Shown here: piece after piece, positions 1 to 8,618 of the stretch
How positions within the stretch are numbered: position 1 is the first letter of the stretch
Layout: the number at the start of each line of letters is the position of its first letter
Source: Xanthomonas theicola
Lineage (GTDB): Bacteria > Pseudomonadota > Gammaproteobacteria > Xanthomonadales > Xanthomonadaceae
Assembly (NCBI RefSeq): GCF_014236795.1
Contig: NZ_CP049017.1
Location: 2,830,001-2,894,000, forward strand
Direction of reading: 5' to 3'
DNA length: 64,000 nt
The notes under the pieces: generated by a model
Database searches by the model: none
What the model was told of the DNA's origin: nothing
What the model saw: only the letters and a program-made list of their open reading frames with translations
Translations under genes and position numbers: made by a program

Positions 1-326
1 GCGTGTACCTGGCCGATGCGCGGCGCAACCTGTTCGTCGGCAACCAGTTCACCGACAACAAGGGCGCCGGCATCTACCTGGCCTGCTCGATCCGCCAGCG
101 CACCCCGGAAATCCTGTGCTGGGACAACAGCATGAGCCAGGACAACACGTTCGATGGCAACATCTTCAAGGGCAATCCCTACACCTACATGATCGGCGTG
201 GATCGTGCAGCCAACTGCACCGGCGCAGACTTCCGCCCCAACCTGTGGCGCAGGAACAACCAGGCCGACGCCTCCGGCATCGACATCCAGCCCGAGCGCT
301 ACGGGCGCTGCGTGCGCTTCGAATAG
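1..326 (+). CDS. Partial beta-helix repeat (NosD/pectate-lyase-like) protein, C-terminal end
   Basis: Only the last 107 or so residues are in the window; the frame is open from base 3 and the gene starts upstream of the window. The text has the rhythm of a right-handed parallel beta-helix, with short repeats rich in Asn, Gly and aromatic residues (NLFVGNQFTDNKGAGIYL, then NTFDGNIFKGN). Such folds occur in periplasmic copper-protein NosD relatives and polysaccharide lyases. Two Cys-containing loops and a compact C-terminus ending in RCVRFE fit an exported protein. The exact substrate cannot be told from this piece. It converges on asnB, with about 160 bases between them and no obvious terminator. 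Confidence 0.6.
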   Translation, partial: VYLADARRNLFVGNQFTDNKGAGIYLACSIRQRTPEILCWDNSMSQDNTFDGNIFKGNPYTYMIGVDRAANCTGADFRPNLWRRNNQADASGIDIQPERYGRCVRFE

Positions 327-489
327 GCGCCGTCGCGGCCGCGAGCCGCCCTCGCGCGGTTGCGGGCATCGAAAGCGGACCGTCCCCGGCGCAAGCAGCC
401 ACGCCGCCGTCCTGCACGGTCGCGGCGGCGGCGTGGCACGGACGATCCAGCCGCAGCCGACAGCGGCCTCGCCAGCCGCGCGACGGCGC

Positions 490-2181
490 TCACGCCAAGG
501 CCTGGTCGTGCACGCCGGCCACCGCGCGGCCGGACGGATCGGCCATCGTCGCGAAGCTCGCATCCCAGGCGATCGCCGCCGGCGAGGAACAGGCGATCGA
601 CTTGCCGCCGGGCACGGTCTCGGCCGCGGCGGGGGTGGGGAACGCGCGCTCGAACAGCGTGCGGTAGTAATAGGCTTCCTTGGTCTGCGGCGGGTTGACC
701 GCGAAGCGCTTGTCGGCCGCGGCCAGTTCGCGGTCGCCGACCTGCGCCTGCGCCTGCGCCTTCAGCCCGTCGATCCAGCCGTAGCCGACGCCGTCGCTGA
801 ACTGCTCCTTCTGCCGCCACAGGATCGACTCGGGCAGATGGCCCGCGAACGCCTCGCGCAGCACCGCCTTCTCGATGCGCTTGCGGCCATCGGCGCCCAC
901 CCCCGCCATCTTGTACTGCGCGTCCATGCGCATCGCCACGTCCAGGAACTCCACGTCCAGGAACGGCACGCGCGGCTCCACGCCCCAGGCCATCATCGAC
1001 TTGTTGGCGCGCAGGCAGTCGTAGTTGTGCAGCGCATCCAGCTTGCGGACCAGCTCCTCGTGGAACTCGCGCGCGTTCGGCGCCTTGTGGAAGTACAGGT
1101 AGCCGCCGAAGATCTCGTCGCTGCCCTCGCCGGACAGCACCATCTTCACCCCCATCGCCTTGATCCGCCGCGCCAGCAGGAACATCGGCGTGGACGCGCG
1201 GATGGTGGTGACGTCGTAGGTCTCGATGTGCCGGATCACCTCCGGCAGCGCGTCCAGGCCTTCCTCGAAAGTGTACTCGAAGCCGTGGTGCACGGTGCCC
1301 AGGGCCTCGGCCGCGATCGCCGCGGCGGCCAGGTCGGGCGAGCCGTTGAGGCCGATCGCGAACGAATGCAGGCGCGGCCACCAGGCCTCGGCCTGGTCGT
1401 TGTCCTCGATGCGCTTGCGCGCGAAACGCGCGGCCACCGCCGCCACCAGCGACGAATCCAGGCCGCCGGACAGCAGCACGCCGTACGGCACGTCGGTCAT
1501 CAACTGGCGGTGCACGGCGCGCTCGAACGCCTCGCGCAGTTCCTGCTTGCCCACCTCCACGCCCTGCACCGCCGCGTAGTCGCGCCACGGCTTGTGGTAG
1601 TACTGCAGCAGCTCGCCGCTGGCGCCATCGTAGTAGTGGCCGGGCGGGAACTGGGCGACGTCGGCGCAGCTGTCGGCCAGCGCCTTCATCTCCGAGGCCA
1701 CCCGCAGCCGGCCCTGGGCGTCGTGGCCCCAGTACAGCGGGCACACTCCCATCGGATCGCGCGCGAGCAGCACGCGGCCGGCGGCCTTGTCCCACAGCGC
1801 GAAGGCGAAGATGCCGTTGAGCCGGTCGAGCAGCGCGGCCGGCGCGTCCTCGCGGTACAGCGCATTAATCACCTCGCAGTCCGAGCCGGTCTGGAACGCG
1901 TAGGGCCTGGCCAACTGCGCCTTCAGTTCGCGGTGGTTGTAGATCTCGCCGTTGACCGCCAGCGCCAGCTGCCCGTCGGCGGACAGCAGCGGCTGCGCGC
2001 CGCCGGCCGGATCGACGATGGCCAGGCGCTCATGCACCAGGATCGCGCCGTCGTCGACATACACGCCGCTCCAGTCCGGGCCGCGATGGCGCTGCCGCTG
2101 CGAGCACTCCAGCGCCTGCCGGCGCAGCGCCTGCACGTCGTCGCCGGGTTGCAGGCCGAAGATGCCGAAGATCGAACACAT
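490..2181 (-). CDS. asnB: Asparagine synthase (glutamine-hydrolysing)
   Basis: Makes asparagine from aspartate, glutamine and ATP in the cytoplasm. The start was set at the ATG giving MCSIFGIFGL, because Cys2 becomes the N-terminal nucleophile of the class II glutaminase domain (residues about 2-190, with RHRGPD and NGEIYNH motifs). An in-frame upstream extension was rejected for that reason. The synthetase domain carries the PP-loop SGGLDSS at residues 238-244 and a later SGEGSDE motif. The length of 563 residues is normal for AsnB. It is the last gene of the minus-strand block and lies 293 bases from dapE. The intervening leader contains an Asn-rich mini-ORF and alternative hairpins, which suggests control by asparaginyl-tRNA supply. 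Confidence 0.96.
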   Translation of the reverse strand: MCSIFGIFGLQPGDDVQALRRQALECSQRQRHRGPDWSGVYVDDGAILVHERLAIVDPAGGAQPLLSADGQLALAVNGEIYNHRELKAQLARPYAFQTGSDCEVINALYREDAPAALLDRLNGIFAFALWDKAAGRVLLARDPMGVCPLYWGHDAQGRLRVASEMKALADSCADVAQFPPGHYYDGASGELLQYYHKPWRDYAAVQGVEVGKQELREAFERAVHRQLMTDVPYGVLLSGGLDSSLVAAVAARFARKRIEDNDQAEAWWPRLHSFAIGLNGSPDLAAAAIAAEALGTVHHGFEYTFEEGLDALPEVIRHIETYDVTTIRASTPMFLLARRIKAMGVKMVLSGEGSDEIFGGYLYFHKAPNAREFHEELVRKLDALHNYDCLRANKSMMAWGVEPRVPFLDVEFLDVAMRMDAQYKMAGVGADGRKRIEKAVLREAFAGHLPESILWRQKEQFSDGVGYGWIDGLKAQAQAQVGDRELAAADKRFAVNPPQTKEAYYYRTLFERAFPTPAAAETVPGGKSIACSSPAAIAWDASFATMADPSGRAVAGVHDQALA

Positions 2182-2221
2182 AGAGAACTCCTGGTCGTGG
2201 GGGGTTGGTCTTATTTCAATC

Positions 2222-2241
2222 CCCGGCCATGGATGGCCGGG
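2222..2241 (-). other. Hairpin in the asnB 5' untranslated region
   Basis: A perfect inverted repeat, CCCGGCCAT facing ATGGCCGGG with a two-base loop, lies between the leader terminator and the asnB start. It has no T-run after it, so it is unlikely to be a terminator. It could stabilise the mRNA end or be part of the folded leader. Function is inferred only from position. Confidence 0.5.
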
Positions 2242-2277
2242 TTCTTGTGGAGGGAACCACGCATCCCACGCATGCAT

Positions 2278-2308
2278 AAAAAAACCCGCATCGGCCGATG
2301 CGGGTTTT
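2278..2308 (-). terminator. Intrinsic terminator in the asnB leader
   Basis: The 11-bp stem AAAACCCGCAT / ATGCGGGTTTT with loop CGGCCG is followed on the minus strand by a run of seven T. It would end transcripts coming from dapE or from a leader promoter before asnB, unless the competing antiterminator forms. Confidence 0.85.
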
Positions 2309-2363
2309 CTGGAGGCTGGGCGTGGTGTTTCGGTAGCGCCTAGTCGCAGACCCGCATCGGCCG
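2278..2363 (-). promoter_or_regulatory. Candidate transcription attenuator of asnB (antiterminator and intrinsic terminator)
   Basis: Read on the minus strand, three segments share complementary sequence. Segment A, CGGCCGATGCGGGT (2363 to 2350), lies in codons 25-29 of the leader ORF. Segment B, ACCCGCATCGGCCG (2305 to 2292), can pair with A over 14 bases. The 5' part of B can instead pair with segment C, ATGCGGGTTTT, forming an 11-bp stem with a six-base loop followed by seven T (2308 to 2278), a textbook intrinsic terminator. A:B and B:C exclude each other. A ribosome that finishes at the leader stop codon would mask A and favour termination. Stalling at the upstream Asn codons would free A and allow read-through into asnB. 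The pairing is seen directly; the regulatory logic is inferred from classical amino-acid attenuators. Confidence 0.75.
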
Positions 2364-2435
2364 CGCACGATTGCCGGCCAGCGCATTATTGCGGCCGTTG
2401 ACGGGGGTCGGGCGGAGCGCGGACAGCGAGGTCAT
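2340..2435 (-). CDS. Asn-rich leader peptide ORF upstream of asnB (31 aa)
   Basis: A short reading frame, ATG to TAG, begins 38 bases after the dapE stop and encodes MTSLSALRPTPV followed by NGRNNALAGNR and ARPMRVCD. Four of 31 residues are Asn (13, 16, 17, 22). Three of these use AAT, the codon this GC-rich genome would be expected to avoid. The last codons contain the sequence that can pair with the 5' arm of the downstream terminator. This is the layout of a leader peptide whose translation senses charged tRNA-Asn. The ribosome binding site is weak, and no separate promoter was recognised in the 38-base gap, so transcription may start inside dapE. No homologue is known to me; the call rests on architecture. 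Confidence 0.65.
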   Translation of the reverse strand: MTSLSALRPTPVNGRNNALAGNRARPMRVCD

Positions 2436-2473
2436 GCGGCGAACGTAACCCGGCCGGCACAGCGGCGCAACCG

Positions 2474-3607
2474 TTACGACAGCAACCGTTCGATCAGGCG
2501 CAGGTACAGCGCCGGCAGCGCCTCCAGATCGGCCACGTGCACGTGCTCGTCCACCTGGTGGATGCTGGCGTTGACCGGGCCGACCTCGATGCACTGCGCG
2601 CCCAGCGGCGCGATGAAGCGCGCGTCGGAGGTGCCGCCGCCGGTGCTTTCCTCCGGCGGCGCACCGGCGAAGGCGCCCAGCACCTGCCGCGCCACGCTGC
2701 GCAGCGTGCCTTCGGGGGTATAGAACGGTTCGCCGCTGCGATGCCAGCGCACACTGTAGTCCAGGCCGTGGCGGTCGAGCAGCGCGGCGATCTCCGCTTC
2801 CAGCCGCGGCGCGTCCCAGTGCGGGGTGTAGCGCAGGTTGAAGGCCGCCTGCAGGTCGCCGGGGATCACGTTGCTGGCGCCGGTGCCGGCGTGCAGGTTG
2901 GAGATCTGCAGGCTGGTCGGCGGGAAGCGCTCGTAGCCGTCGTCCCAGTGCCGCGCGACCAGTTCGGCCAGCGCCGGCGCGGCCAGGTGGATCGGGTTGC
3001 GCGCCTTGTGCGGATAGGCGACATGCCCCTGCACTCCGCGCACCGTCAGCGCGGCGGACAGGCTGCCGCGGCGGCCGACGCGCAGCAGGTCGCCGAGCCG
3101 CTCCGTGGAGGACGGTTCGCCGGTGATGCACCAGTCGATGCGCTCGCCGCGCGCGCGCAAGGTCTCGGCGACCTTGCGCACGCCGTCCAACGCGTCGCCT
3201 TCCTCGTCGGAGGTCAGCAGCAGCGCCAGCGTGCCGGGATGGTCCGGATGCGCGGCGACGAACTGCTCGGCGGCGACCACGAACGCGGCCACCCCGCTCT
3301 TCATGTCGGCGGCGCCGCGCCCGTACAGCACGCCGTTGCGGATCTGCGGGGCGAACGGATCGCTGGCCCAGGCCTCGCGCGGTCCCGGCGGCACCACGTC
3401 GGTGTGGCCGAGCAGCGCCAGCACCGGGCCGTGGTTGCCGGCGCCATGGGTGGCCCACAGGTTGTCGACCCGGCCGAAGCGCAGCCGCTCGATGGCGAAG
3501 CCGGCGCGCGCCAGCCGCTGCGCGATCAGTTCCTGGCAGCCGGCGTCGTCGGGCGTCAGCGACGCGCGGGCGATCAGTTCGCAGGTAAGGTCAACAACGT
3601 CGGACAT
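2474..3607 (-). CDS. dapE: Succinyl-diaminopimelate desuccinylase
   Basis: Hydrolyses N-succinyl-LL-diaminopimelate to LL-diaminopimelate and succinate, a late step of lysine and peptidoglycan precursor synthesis. It belongs to the M20 metallopeptidase family. The zinc-site motifs [22 protein letters not shown] and [11 protein letters not shown] are present in order. The 377-residue length matches the family. The start [19 protein letters not shown] is at the natural family position. It follows the ArsC-like gene and dapD on the same strand, although a REP-like inverted repeat separates it from them, so it may have its own promoter. Confidence 0.96.
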
Positions 3608-3620
3608 GAGTAGGAAACCA

Positions 3621-3742
3621 CTGTAGGAGCGGCTTCAGCCGCGACAGGATGCAGAGCGTGCCACGCACGCCTGCAGTGCGAACGGTCGACGTGCGCTCGG
3701 ACATCCTTTGGGCCATGGTCGCGGCTGAAGCCGCTCCTACAG
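3621..3742. repeat. REP-like inverted pair (BIME-like element)
   Basis: Two 25-base arms, 3621-3645 and 3718-3742, are exact reverse complements of each other and start with CTGTAGGAGCGGCTTCAG. Each arm is itself partly palindromic (GCGGCTTCAGCCGC). The 72-base centre is unique. This matches the GTAGGAGCGGCTTCAGCCGCGAC repeat class dispersed in Xanthomonas and Stenotrophomonas intergenic regions. It sits between dapE and the ArsC-like gene. Confidence 0.85.
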
Positions 3743-3764
3743 GGAGCGCAAGCACGACTGACGC

Positions 3765-4121
3765 CTAGCCCACGCCGAAGCGCTGCTTGAAGCCGTTGTC
3801 GGAAAAGCCCTGGCTGAGCCGGCCGTCGCCGGTGATGACCAGCGGCCGCCGGATCAGTTGCGGATGCTCGCGCAGCAACAGTTTCCACTCGGCCTCGGAA
3901 ACGGGCATTTTCCTGTTGTCCGGCAGTTGCCGCCACGTGGTCGAGGACTTGTTGACCAGTGCGTCGAAGCCGCCCGCCTTGCCGGCCCATTCGAGCACGG
4001 TCTCGGGGGCGGGCGTGTGCTCGCGGTAATCGACGAAGGTGTGGGCGATGCCGAAACGGTCCAGCCACTTCCTCGCCTTCTTGCAGGTGTCGCAGTTCTT
4101 CAGTCCGTACAGCGTGGTCAT
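3765..4121 (-). CDS. ArsC/Spx-family (YffB-like) thioredoxin-fold protein
   Basis: The protein has 118 residues. Its N-terminus MTTLYGLKNCDTCKKARKWL carries a CxxC (residues 10-13) on a thioredoxin fold, and a conserved RRPLVI segment lies near the end. The family includes arsenate reductase ArsC and the regulator Spx. This small member resembles YffB, which also lies beside dapE in Escherichia coli. The function of YffB is not established; a glutathione-dependent reductase role is only a family-based guess. It lies 56 bases after dapD, so co-transcription is likely. Confidence 0.85.
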   Translation of the reverse strand: MTTLYGLKNCDTCKKARKWLDRFGIAHTFVDYREHTPAPETVLEWAGKAGGFDALVNKSSTTWRQLPDNRKMPVSEAEWKLLLREHPQLIRRPLVITGDGRLSQGFSDNGFKQRFGVG

Positions 4122-4177
4122 CGGCGATGTCCCGAAAAAGCGCAGAAACGCCCGTCTGCCGGGCGCACGAGGATGCG

Positions 4178-5206
4178 TCAATCGGCCAGGCCGCGCAGCA
4201 GTTCGTTGACGCTGGTCTTGCCGCGGGTCTTGGCGTCGACCCGCTTGACGATCACCGCGCAGTACAGCGAGTGCGAGCCGTCCTTGGCCGGCAGCTGGCC
4301 GGACACCACCACGCTGCAGGGCGGCACGTAGCCATAGGAGATCTCGCCGGTGGCGCGGTCGTAGATGCGCGTGCTCTGGCCGATGAACACGCCCATGCCG
4401 ATCACGCTGTGGTGGCCGACCACCACGCCTTCCACCACTTCCGAACGCGCGCCGACGAAGCAGTGGTCCTCGATGATGGTCGGGCCGGCCTGCAGCGGCT
4501 CGAGCACGCCGCCGATGCCGGCGCCGCCGGACAGGTGGCAGTGCTTGCCGATCTGCGCGCACGACCCCACCGTGGCCCAGGTATCGACCATGGTGCCTTC
4601 GCCCACGTGCGCGCCGATGTTGGTGAAGCTCGGCATCAGCACCACGTCCCTGCCGAAGTGGCTGCCGCGGCGCGCGATCGCGCCCGGCACCACGCGCACG
4701 CCGGCCTTGCGGAACTCGGCCTCGTGGTAGCCGGCGAAGCGCGATTCGACCTTGTCCCAGAACGGCGCCGGCTGCGCCTCGACCACGGTCATCTCGTTGA
4801 CGCGGAAGTACAGCAGCACCGCCTTCTTCAGCCACTCGTTGACCGTCCAGGCGCCGCGCCCGTCGGGCTCGGCGACGCGGAACTCGCCACTTTCCAGGCC
4901 GTCGATGACGCGGTTGACCACCGGCCGGGTCGAGCCTTCGATCTCGTCCAGGGTCAACGCGGCGCGGCGTTCGAAGGCGCTGTCGATGGTGAACTTCAGC
5001 TCGTCGGCGCTGGGGCCAGCGGCCGGCTTGGCGCGTAGCGGCCTGGCCGGCGCCTTCGGCGCGGCCGCGGGTTGGGCGGCCGCGGCGGCGGCGACGGTCT
5101 TGACCGCGGCCTTCTTCGCGGTGGCCTTCCTGGCGGCGGGCTTGGGGGCAGCGGGCTTCTTGCCGGCGGCAGGCTTCTTGATGGCGGCAAGCTTCTTGAT
5201 GGCCAT
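4178..5206 (-). CDS. dapD: Tetrahydrodipicolinate N-succinyltransferase with Lys/Ala-rich N-terminal extension
   Basis: Transfers succinyl from succinyl-CoA to tetrahydrodipicolinate in the diaminopimelate/lysine pathway. The core (residues about 66-342) shows left-handed beta-helix hexapeptide repeats, for example [20 protein letters not shown], and matches the usual size of about 275 residues. Residues 1-65 are an added tail of Lys, Ala and Pro with repeated KKPAA-type motifs, resembling histone H1 or AlgP tails. Its start codon overlaps the glnD stop (TAATG), indicating translational coupling. The extension could be cut back if translation began further in, but no good internal start with a ribosome site was seen. 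Confidence 0.93.
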
Positions 5207-7812
5207 TAGCGTGATTCTCCAGGCGGGGTATCGGGATCCAGGCAGGCCTGCAATGCGGCGTGCAGCGCCTGGCGGGAAGCGTCGGGCAACGGCAGGTTGT
5301 GCTCGTCGGTGATCTGGAACAGGTCTTCGGCGCGCTCGCCGAAGGTGGCGATGCGCGCGTCGTGCACGCGCAGCTGGTGGCGGCGCAGCACCTGCGCCAC
5401 GTTCGACAGCAGGCCGGGCCGGTCCGGCGCGACCAGGCTCAGTCGGGTGCGGCGGCCGTCCACGCTCTCGCGGAATTCGATGCGCGGCGCGAAACGGAAA
5501 TGCCGCAGCTGCCGCGGCACCACGCGCCGCGCCGGGCGCAGCCGGGTCAGGTCGCCGCTCAGCGCCTCGCGCAGCGCCGCTTCCAGCTGCGCGGTGTCGC
5601 CGCTGGCGAAGGCATCAGCCGGCATCACCTCGAAGGTATCGAAGATCGCCTCGTGCGGCGCATCGAGCACGCGGGCGCGGTGGATGCCGTAGCCGAGCCG
5701 GTCCAGGGTCATCACGATCGCGGCGAACAGGCCGTCGCGGTCCGGGGAATACACGAAGACTTCCAGCGCATCGTCGTCGGGCGTGACCGGGCGCACCTTG
5801 ACCAGGGTGCCGCCCAGTTCCACTTCCATCAGCGAACTCGCCTGCCAGGCCAGTTGCTCGGGGCGGAAGCGCAGGAAGCTCTCGTCCGGCATGCCGGCGA
5901 ACTGACGGTCGATGACCGCGTCGTCGTGGCCCTGGATGTGCATCAGCGCGCGGGTGGCCTCGCGCGCCTCCTGCACGTGCTCGGCCACCGGCCGCGGATG
6001 CTCCAGGCCGTCGCGCAGCGCGCGCCGGGCGGCGAAGTACAGGTCGGCCAGCAAGCGGTCCTTCCACGCGTTCCACAGCTTGGGGCTGGTGCCGGCGATG
6101 TCGGCGCAAGTCAGCAGGTACAGATAATCCAGGCGCTCGCGGTCGCCGACCAGGCTGGCGAAGCGGTGGATCACTTCGGCATCGGAGATGTCCTGCTTCT
6201 GCGCGGTCACCGACATGCGCAGGTGCTGCTCGACCAGCCAGGCGACCAGTTCGGTATCGGCCGCGCTGAGCCCGTGGCCGGCGCAGAACACGCGCGCGTC
6301 GACCGCGCCAAGTTCGGAATGGTCGCCGCCGCGGCCCTTGGCGATGTCGTGGAACAGCCCGGCCAACAACAGCAGCTCCGGCTTGCGCAGCCGCGGCCAG
6401 ACCTCGTGCGCGATCGAGAAACGGTCGTCGGCGCGCGCGCCGGCGAACACGGCGATGTTCTTCAGCACCATCAGCGTGTGCTGGTCCACCGTGTACACGT
6501 GGAACAGGTCGAACTGCATGCGCCCGGACACCTGCGCGAACGCCGGGATCCACTGCCCGAGCACGCCCAGCCGTGCCATCCGGGTCAGCGTCTGCACCGC
6601 GCGCGGGCCGCGCAGCAAGGCCAGAAAACGCTCGCGCGCCGGCGCGCCGGCGCTGTCGTAGGCGGGCAGGCGCGGCAGCGCTTCGGCCAGCGCCCGCGCG
6701 GTCAGCGAATGCAGGCCGTGCACCTCGCCGTGCGCGGCCCAGGTCGCGAACAGCGCGAACACCTGCATCGGATCGGCCTGCGGCCAAGCGGCGGCGTCGG
6801 CGACCAGGTAGCCGCGGCGCAGCGAAAAGCCGCCGCCCAGCAGCCGTGGCTGCACCTCGCCGTCGAACTGTTCCTCGAAGCGCTGCAGCAGCCGGTCGCT
6901 GATGCGCCGGATCAGCGCCGCGCTGCGATAGAAGCGCTGCATCATCTTCTCGACGCCCAGGCTCTCCGGATCGTCGACATCGCCCAGGCGCTGCGCCAGC
7001 GCCTTCTGATAATCGAAGCGCAACCGCTCCTCCAAGCGACCGGCCACCAGGTGCAGGCCGAAGCGCAACCGCGCCAGCGCCTTGCGCTCGCGCGCCAGCG
7101 CGTCGGCCTCGTCGTTGCCGACGTGGCCCAGCCCGACCAGCGCCTGCAGATCGCGCACGCCGAACGCGCGCAGCGCCATCCAGCCCAGCGTATGCAGGTC
7201 GCGCAGTCCGCCCGGGCCGTCCTTGATGTCCGGCTCCAGGTTGTCGGCGGTGTCGCCGAAGCGCTGGTGGCGGAGCTGCAGTTCCTCGCGCTTGGCAAGG
7301 AAAAATTCGCGCGGCGGCCATACCTGCTGCGGCGCGATCGCCGCGGCCAGCGACGCCCTGGCCGCGGCGTCGGCGAGCAGCGGGCGCGCCTCGATCAGCG
7401 CGGTCAGCACGGTCTGGTCGGCGCAGGCGGCGGTGCATTGCGCGGCCGAGCGCACCGCATGGCTCACCGGCACGCCGGCGTGCCAGAGCAGTGCGAACAG
7501 CCGCGCCAACGCCGGTTCGTGCGCGCGCTGGCGCCCGGCTTCGCCGAGCACCAGCAGGTCGATGTCCGAGCGCGGGAACAGTTCGCCGCGGCCGTAGCCA
7601 CCGACCGCGAACAGCGCCAGCCCGGCGTCGCGCGGCAGGCAGCGGCTCCAGGCGTGCCCGATCAACTGGTCCAGCGCGCGCGCGCGCAGCGCCAGCAGGC
7701 GGTCGATGGCGTCGCCGTGGTCGAAGCGCTTGCTCAGCCGCGCGTCGGCCTGGGCCAGCAACTGCCGGGCGGCCGCAGCCCAGTCGGCATCGTCGGCGGC
7801 CGCATCGGGCAT
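5206..7812 (-). CDS. glnD: PII uridylyltransferase / uridylyl-removing enzyme
   Basis: Bifunctional nitrogen sensor that adds UMP to PII proteins when glutamine is low and removes it when glutamine is high. Domains in order are a nucleotidyltransferase ([19 protein letters not shown]), an HD hydrolase ([18 protein letters not shown]) and two C-terminal ACT domains that bind glutamine. With the chosen start (MPDAAADD) it has 868 residues, usual for xanthomonads. A GTG at 7843-7845, overlapping the map stop as GTGA, would add 11 residues and is a fair alternative. It is sandwiched tightly between map and dapD, so the three are probably one operon. Confidence 0.95.
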
Positions 7813-7841
7813 GCCGGCGTCGCTGCCGGCCGGCAGCAGGC

Positions 7842-8618
7842 TCACGGCTCGCCGAGGCCGCCGGGCGACAGGGTCAGCACATCCACGCCGTCCTCGGTGA
7901 CCGCGATCATGTGCTCCCATTGCGCCGACAGCTTGCGGTCCTTGGTCACCACGGTCCAGCCGTCCGGCAGCACCCGGGTGTAGCGCAAGCCCTCGTTGAT
8001 CATCGGCTCGATGGTGAAGGTCATGCCCGGCTTCAGCAACAGGCCTTCGCCGGGACGGCCGTAGTGCAGCACCTGCGGTTCGTCGTGGTAGACCTTGCCG
8101 ATGCCGTGGCCGCAATACTCGCGCACCACGCTGAAGCGCTGGCTTTCGGCGTACTGCTGGATCGCGTTGCCGACGTCGCCCAGCGTGGCGCCCGGCCGCA
8201 CTGCGCGGATGCCGCGCCACATCGCCTCGTAGGTCGCCTCGACCAGGCGCCGCGCCATCACCGACGGCGTGCCGACGTAGTACATGCGGCTGGTGTCGCC
8301 GTGCCAGCCGTCCTTAATCACGGTGACGTCGATGTTGACGATGTCGCCGTCCTTCAGCACCTTGCTGTCGTTGGGGATGCCATGGCAGATCACGTTGTTC
8401 ACCGAGCTGCACACCGTCTTCGGGTAGCCGCGGTAGCCGACGTTGGCCGGCACCGCCTGCTGCACGTTGACGATGTGGTCGTGACAGATGCGGTCGAGTT
8501 CGGCGGTGGTGGCGCCCGGCTTCACATGCGGGGCGACCACGTCGAGCACCTCGGCGGCCAATCGCCCGGCCACGCGCATCAGTTCGATTTCCTGTTTGGT
8601 TTTCAGATTGACGCTCAT
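7842..8618 (-). CDS. map: Type I methionine aminopeptidase
   Basis: Removes the initiator methionine from nascent proteins. The 258-residue protein starts MSVNLKTKQEIELMRVAG and holds the five metal ligands in the expected context: two Asp around IDVTVIKDGWHGDTSRMY, His in YCGHGIGK, and Glu in FTIEPMINEG and near the C-terminus (EHMIAVTEDG). It heads the minus-strand operon map-glnD-dapD and is divergent from the pilus locus. The ORF extends further upstream, but the start used matches the family N-terminus. Confidence 0.96.
   Translation of the reverse strand: MSVNLKTKQEIELMRVAGRLAAEVLDVVAPHVKPGATTAELDRICHDHIVNVQQAVPANVGYRGYPKTVCSSVNNVICHGIPNDSKVLKDGDIVNIDVTVIKDGWHGDTSRMYYVGTPSVMARRLVEATYEAMWRGIRAVRPGATLGDVGNAIQQYAESQRFSVVREYCGHGIGKVYHDEPQVLHYGRPGEGLLLKPGMTFTIEPMINEGLRYTRVLPDGWTVVTKDRKLSAQWEHMIAVTEDGVDVLTLSPGGLGEP

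Follow-up and report, generated by a model that had tools for sequence, protein, structure and literature searches.

The asnB locus

The window analysed here is a single stretch of 64,000 nucleotides from Xanthomonas theicola. All parts of the putative attenuator described below, together with asnB itself, are read on its minus strand. In the order of reading, the features are as follows:

3607-2474, minus strand: dapE, the 5′ neighbour of the leader (family model TIGR01246, 542.1 bits)
2470-2465, minus strand: predicted -35 box TTGCGC (TTGN3), just past the dapE stop codon, with a 17-nt spacer to the -10 box
2447-2442, minus strand: predicted -10 box TACGTT, 6 nt 5′ of the leader AUG
2435, minus strand: predicted transcription start at the A of the leader AUG (leaderless), from the conserved box position
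2435-2340, minus strand: leader peptide ORF MTSLSALRPTPVNGRNNALAGNRARPMRVCD, 31 codons with four Asn (ORF reading and conservation in relatives)
2390-2385, minus strand: Asn16-Asn17, AAT AAT, the main predicted stall site (sequence and stall model)
2363-2350, minus strand: region 2, the antiterminator 5′ strand, CGGCCGATGCGGGT, within the end of the ORF (duplex and covariation)
2308-2278, minus strand: intrinsic terminator hairpin and T run (sequence, covariation and hairpin scan)
2305-2292, minus strand: region 3, ACCCGCATCGGCCG, the complement of region 2, comprising terminator 5′ arm and loop (duplex and covariation)
2192-2188, minus strand: Shine-Dalgarno-like AGGAG of asnB (read from the sequence)
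2181-490, minus strand: asnB, glutamine-hydrolysing asparagine synthase B (871.6 bits with family model NF006949, cut-off 499)

A preliminary description of this DNA had proposed an asparagine attenuator of the his/trp type in front of asnB, and its reading of the parts was largely borne out. The leader ORF has the 31 codons and four Asn codons reported, three of them AAT (N16, N17 and N22) and one AAC (N13). Region 2 is the perfect complement described, pairing with region 3 at 14 of 14 positions, and its 14 letters do recur in the terminator, at 2297-2284, where they span the end of the 5′ arm, the loop and the 3′ arm. The distance of 21 bases from Asn17 to region 2 was likewise read as given, while the spacing between region 2 and its complement, put at 45 bases, proved near to the mark at an exact count of 44 intervening bases. 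The terminator itself consists of arms at 2308-2297 and 2292-2281, a GGCC loop and seven T at 2284-2278, and 96 nt separate the T run from the asnB start codon at 2181. A scan of both strands of the 64 kb for perfect hairpins with a T tail and a stem of 8 bp or longer gave just two, and only that of asnB has an Asn-rich ORF 5′ of it. A second hairpin, CCCGGCCATCCATGGCCGGG, lies at 2241-2222 on the minus strand between the terminator and asnB.

Conservation of the leader element

Presence of the leader in relatives was scored by eye on printed leaders. Within the genus the element was found at 20 of 20 loci (our own and 19 others), with the ORF kept and four to six Asn in it. The preliminary description had argued that loss of the ORF or of its Asn codons in close relatives that keep the hairpin would speak against attenuation; no such loss was seen at these 20 loci, and the conserved Asn codons that it had predicted for relatives were found.

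Further afield, the named loci were the best 80 by AsnB match, 43 with an AsnB at least 73% identical and 37 below. Leader, region 2 and terminator were present together in 40 of the 43. The three misses (L017, L021 and L045) are records labelled Holophagales, Rhodococcus and Deltaproteobacteria that carry a Xanthomonadaceae-like asnB (76-83%) without a leader, for which transfer, contamination or misbinning are alternative explanations. Below 73% no element was found at 36 of the 37 loci, whose AsnB is 60-65% identical and among which is L063, from a Lysobacterales genus; the remaining locus, L057, from a Lysobacterales MAG with an AsnB of 69%, has both leader and terminator. At L057 and at L240 the upstream gene is tRNA-Arg(acg) rather than dapE and the leader is still present, with TATGTT or TATGGT 7 nt 5′ of an in-frame AUG.

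Other genera of the same family, one genome each, had the element at 28 of 29 readable loci. This sample comprised 30 of the 54 genera encountered, picked for an AsnB match at E ~2e-250 or better; L215 begins at a contig edge and was not readable, hence the 29 genera scored. At L230 (genome G003) AsnB is 77% identical and the upstream region contains no leader. Among loci with a close AsnB, the element was found in 37 of 37 from family f2 (30/30 best-matching and 7/7), which, judged by named relatives, is probably Rhodanobacteraceae, and in 3 of 3 from family f183. It was absent from 10 of 10 loci of f190 and from 29 of 30 further distant loci, the exception being L153. These distant loci include six f1 and three f2 genomes (L158, L161, L165-L167 and L169; L154, L159 and L163) in which the one strong match, an AsnB with 62-66% identity, has no leader. 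This leader-free asnB in the same families is a second asnB lineage without the putative attenuator.

An automatic criterion based partly on Asn density (at least three Asn in 14 residues) was positive at 113 of 195 loci; of 195 shuffled controls none was positive, and of 195 reverse-complemented ones two were. Four of the flagged loci (L066, L075, L077 and L120) were judged spurious, having three Asn in long unrelated frames, and six with a leader visible by eye were missed (L015, L041, L090, L118, L195 and L199). The set of 105 distinct leaders used below omits these ten loci and also L211-L240. A 26-residue ORF with seven Asn at L074 (Photobacterium) was rejected, as no terminator was found there and the ORF is not kept in L076 of the same genus. 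Over the 105 leaders the gap from the terminator to the aligned asnB start ranges from 18 to 213 nt (L024, L121, L126, L134 and other f2 loci were noted in this respect). L228 has a longer gap, with extra GC-rich hairpins that resemble an inserted repeat.

Moreover, of 60 relatives searched with a covariance model of the element, 35 gave one strong match each (E of 5.5e-10 or lower, the next best being 4e-7), in all 35 directly upstream of asnB by coordinates; some of these leaders belong to the model and so match by construction. Weak matches (E 4e-7 and worse) occurred in all 60 genomes and were taken as background. One strong match per genome, always upstream of asnB, makes the element look single-copy and tied to this gene.

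Pairing and covariation of the alternative stems

In the window the 14-bp duplex of regions 2 and 3 has a predicted energy of -32.4 kcal/mol, better than 200 of 200 letter shuffles. For 58 distinct leaders, 47 of the corresponding duplexes beat at least 95% of their shuffles; 7 of the 11 that do not come from records named Lysobacter or Lysobacteraceae. Covariation, which the preliminary description had expected in both alternative stems, was examined in 49 leaders picked for difference out of the 105, and was found in both. For the antiterminator 80.7% of cells were paired against 74.6% in shuffles, with a covariation of 0.152 against 0.088; the terminator gave 98.8% against 92.0% and 0.260 against 0.129. 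Neither value was reached by any of 500 shuffles for either stem. Related sequences can exceed such shuffles, and therefore the register slides matter: these paired at most 45.7% of cells for the antiterminator and 58.4% for the terminator. Counts of double-change pairs and of further pair types were not above shuffles for the antiterminator (235 and 293 of 500 reach them) and not clearly above for the terminator (43 and 92 of 500).

Leaders were also paired with the terminators of other loci. Leaders with their own terminators averaged -26.5 and -18.7 kcal/mol in the two clades, and swaps inside a clade cost little (-25.5 and -17.6 kcal/mol), whereas leaders combined with terminators of the other clade were weaker (-17.7 and -14.8 kcal/mol). 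At L228, CCTGC / GCAGG replace the common CCCGC / GCGGG in regions 2, 3 and 4 together.

The classical 1:2 protector hairpin, in contrast to these stems, was on the whole no better than chance. Among the 58 leaders z fell below -1.64 in only six, with a mean z of -0.64 against shuffles, and a possible 1:2 fold in the window has a z of -1.2. With 52 of 58 leaders no better than shuffles at z -1.64, we dropped this hairpin as a conserved part, a point that goes beyond the preliminary description.

A terminator lying between dapE and asnB could also simply end dapE transcription, with asnB having a promoter of its own and the ORF being a chance frame. Besides the position of the terminator, it can be said for this explanation that the terminator-asnB gap was covered by a single promoter search, a sigma-70 consensus scan, which was empty on both strands of 1500-5000. 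However, three families have kept the ORF together with its Asn codons and region 2, and these covary with the terminator; at L057 and L240 the leader stands behind tRNA-Arg, with no dapE there. Because of this conservation and covariation we reject a dapE terminator alone, and regard it as highly improbable.

Asparagine codons in the leaders

The last 34 codons of the 105 distinct leaders contain 676 Asn (315 AAT and 361 AAC) and 7 Lys, a count in which Asn is inflated by calling leaders partly on Asn density, while the scarcity of Lys and the share of AAT are not affected. The asnB genes of 97 of these loci contain 834 Asn (104 AAT and 730 AAC) and 1698 Lys. Thus AAT makes up 47% of Asn codons in the leaders against 12% in asnB; the leaders are enriched in a codon seldom used by the genes that follow. 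From the near absence of Lys and the share of AAT, it seems that asparagine is kept rather than A-rich sequence. In theory, how sensitive attenuation is depends both on which codons are chosen and on what fraction of them is regulatory, according to the accessible part of PMC1183508.

What is kept and what diverges in the leader peptide also bears on two other explanations. The same terminator might be governed by a leader RNA that senses tRNA or a ligand directly (a T-box or riboswitch) or that binds a protein. Firmicutes have asn T-boxes, and folding of the leader is a little more favourable than that of its shuffles (z -2.15), both of which would suit such an RNA. Against this, the frame running into the antiterminator keeps its Asn codons while the peptide is otherwise divergent. 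Moreover, a search of window positions 1-8000 against Rfam at E up to 1 returned only SgrS (E 0.8, with 15.4 bits where the gathering score is 37); with no match above the gathering score, a T-box or riboswitch was rejected, and we consider a leader RNA of any of these kinds extremely unlikely.

The divergence of the peptide is also what weighs against a leader that works chiefly through a short peptide or a trans-acting small RNA and only secondarily by attenuation. Such products are known from a related arrangement, the leaderless trp attenuator of Sinorhizobium meliloti, which yields a trans-acting sRNA and a peptide (accessible part of PMC7298713). Here the peptide outside the Asn cluster and the region 2 codons differs widely among genera, so that a shared peptide function is not favoured; we give this explanation a very slender chance beside attenuation as the main role.

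Start of the leader

Upstream of the ORF we found a box pattern (TTG-N19..21-T[A/C/T]NNNT) ending 6-8 nt 5′ of an in-frame start codon in 87 of 105 leaders, and at 2 of 1578 control ATG/GTG of the same stretches. A stricter -10 (TANNNT) had given 45 of 105 leaders and 0 of 1376 controls, and was loosened to the above form once the misses were seen. The start codon is ATG in 86 of the 87 and GTG in one, the spacer is 17 in 74, and the 13 nt inspected 5′ of the start contain no Shine-Dalgarno tetramer in any of the 87. The case for a leader promoter is made by this conserved position of the boxes, the consensus scan by itself having found no promoter site on either strand of 1500-5000.

A -10 box 6-8 nt from the start codon, together with the missing Shine-Dalgarno, suggests that the leader is probably translated from a leaderless, 5′-terminal AUG, which the preliminary description had not considered. 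In the window the box positions would place the transcription start at the first base, A, of the AUG. Among the 18 leaders without the pattern, 8 (Lysobacter-like) have TTG and a CAGGAT 6 nt 5′ of the start, a box that might serve either as a -10 in the corresponding position or as a Shine-Dalgarno. As CAGGAT contains AGGA, the leaderless reading is less settled in this group than elsewhere.

Proposed mechanism

The locus thus combines, by sequence reading, a short ORF with clustered codons of the pathway's own amino acid, an intrinsic terminator between this ORF and the structural gene, and a mutually exclusive antiterminator that takes the terminator 5′ arm, with covariation; the downstream gene makes the sensed amino acid, AsnB being identified by its family model. 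Taken together, these parts, their conservation and covariation and the kept Asn codons point to a ribosome-mediated transcription attenuator that senses the supply of asparaginyl-tRNA and controls asnB, as the preliminary description had proposed. We put the probability of this reading at about 0.9.

The course of events that we infer, from the leaderless start and translation of the leader to stalling and to termination or its relief, would be as follows. RNA polymerase would start at the leader AUG, and a ribosome would load on that 5′-terminal AUG and follow. With ample Asn-tRNA the ribosome would reach the stop codon and cover region 2, leaving regions 3 and 4 to form the terminator, and a short RNA of about 158 nt in the window would result; over 87 leaders the predicted length of this RNA is 134-201 nt. 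When Asn-tRNA is scarce the ribosome would stall at the Asn codons and region 2, left uncovered, would pair with region 3; this would block the terminator, and asnB would be transcribed.

Asn-tRNA can report asparagine supply in this organism, since AsnRS is present in the genome, above its cut-off, and no asnA was found in the genome searched. Elsewhere in the genome, AsnB was matched by a 681-residue frame, in two pieces and with 28% identity overall, and partially by one more sequence; given the 681-residue paralogue, asnB need not be the sole synthetase.

We modelled the two states with assumed ribosome edges and equilibrium folding. When the ribosome was placed at the stop codon, the RNA beyond it folded as the terminator in 105 of 105 leaders. 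With the ribosome at the median Asn codon and region 4 not yet made, at least five pairs of 2:3 formed in 104 of 105, a lenient measure that 58 of 87 leaders still pass with the ORF end shuffled once. In the window, modelled stalls at Asn13, 16 and 17 gave 12-13 pairs of 2:3, and a stall at Asn22 gave 9 pairs before region 4 was made and then the terminator.

Untranslated leaders were also folded. The full leader of the window folds as the antiterminator, and in 74 of 87 leaders the terminator is the fold of lowest energy; with region 4 still to be transcribed, 78 of 87 adopt the antiterminator. In the trp and his systems the absence of translation ends transcription. We would suggest tentatively, as a rather doubtful extension of the main reading, a leaderless asparagine attenuator that much of an order has retained and that has two inputs, namely Asn-tRNA charging and the efficiency with which ribosomes start on the 5′-terminal AUG. 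Without a protector hairpin, an untranslated leader could then read through. Since the terminator is the minimum-energy fold in most leaders and the antiterminator forms earlier, such read-through would depend on folding kinetics.

Comparison with known systems

To our knowledge, no leader-peptide attenuator for asparagine is known, and the preliminary description had placed asnB outside the classical attenuated operons. In agreement with this, none for asparagine was found among the literature matches listed, from a search of freely readable literature. The accessible parts of PMC2965389, PMC3771888, PMC1262725, PMC1183508, PMC7298713, PMC10117765, PMC5009743 and PMC6230763 contain no asparagine leader. 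The kind of attenuator is known for other amino acids; for asparagine it is apparently new. If the reading is true, much of a bacterial order, including plant pathogens and soil bacteria, would have a direct asparagine sensor at asnB. Moreover, these probably leaderless attenuators would offer a natural collection for studying ribosome-polymerase coupling without a Shine-Dalgarno.

Ribosome-mediated attenuators control the his, trp, leu, thr, phe and ilv operons of Proteobacteria. Asparagine genes of Firmicutes can carry T-box leaders, which bind tRNA directly and involve no translation; control of asparagine genes by Asn-tRNA charging would be shared with these, but the tRNA is bound directly there and no T-box match was found at window positions 1-8000. 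With the proteobacterial attenuators the present element shares an ORF rich in codons of the end product, alternative antiterminator and terminator stems, and a T-tailed terminator before a biosynthetic gene (theory in the accessible part of PMC1183508). It differs from them in concerning asparagine and asnB, in that a conserved 1:2 protector or pause hairpin is not supported, and in its probably leaderless start. The met operon 5′UTR of Xanthomonas campestris likewise provides amino-acid feedback through a 5′UTR in this genus, but it is reported as translational control, with a SAM-I-like stretch and no Asn leader (accessible part of PMC6230763). The S. meliloti trpL (rnTrpL/peTrpL), whose leader RNA begins with the AUG of the leader peptide (accessible parts of PMC7298713 and PMC10117765), differs in sensing tryptophan, in its 14-aa peptide and in belonging to an alphaproteobacterium; an RNA 5′ end at the leader AUG is measured there and, for the asnB leader, predicted.
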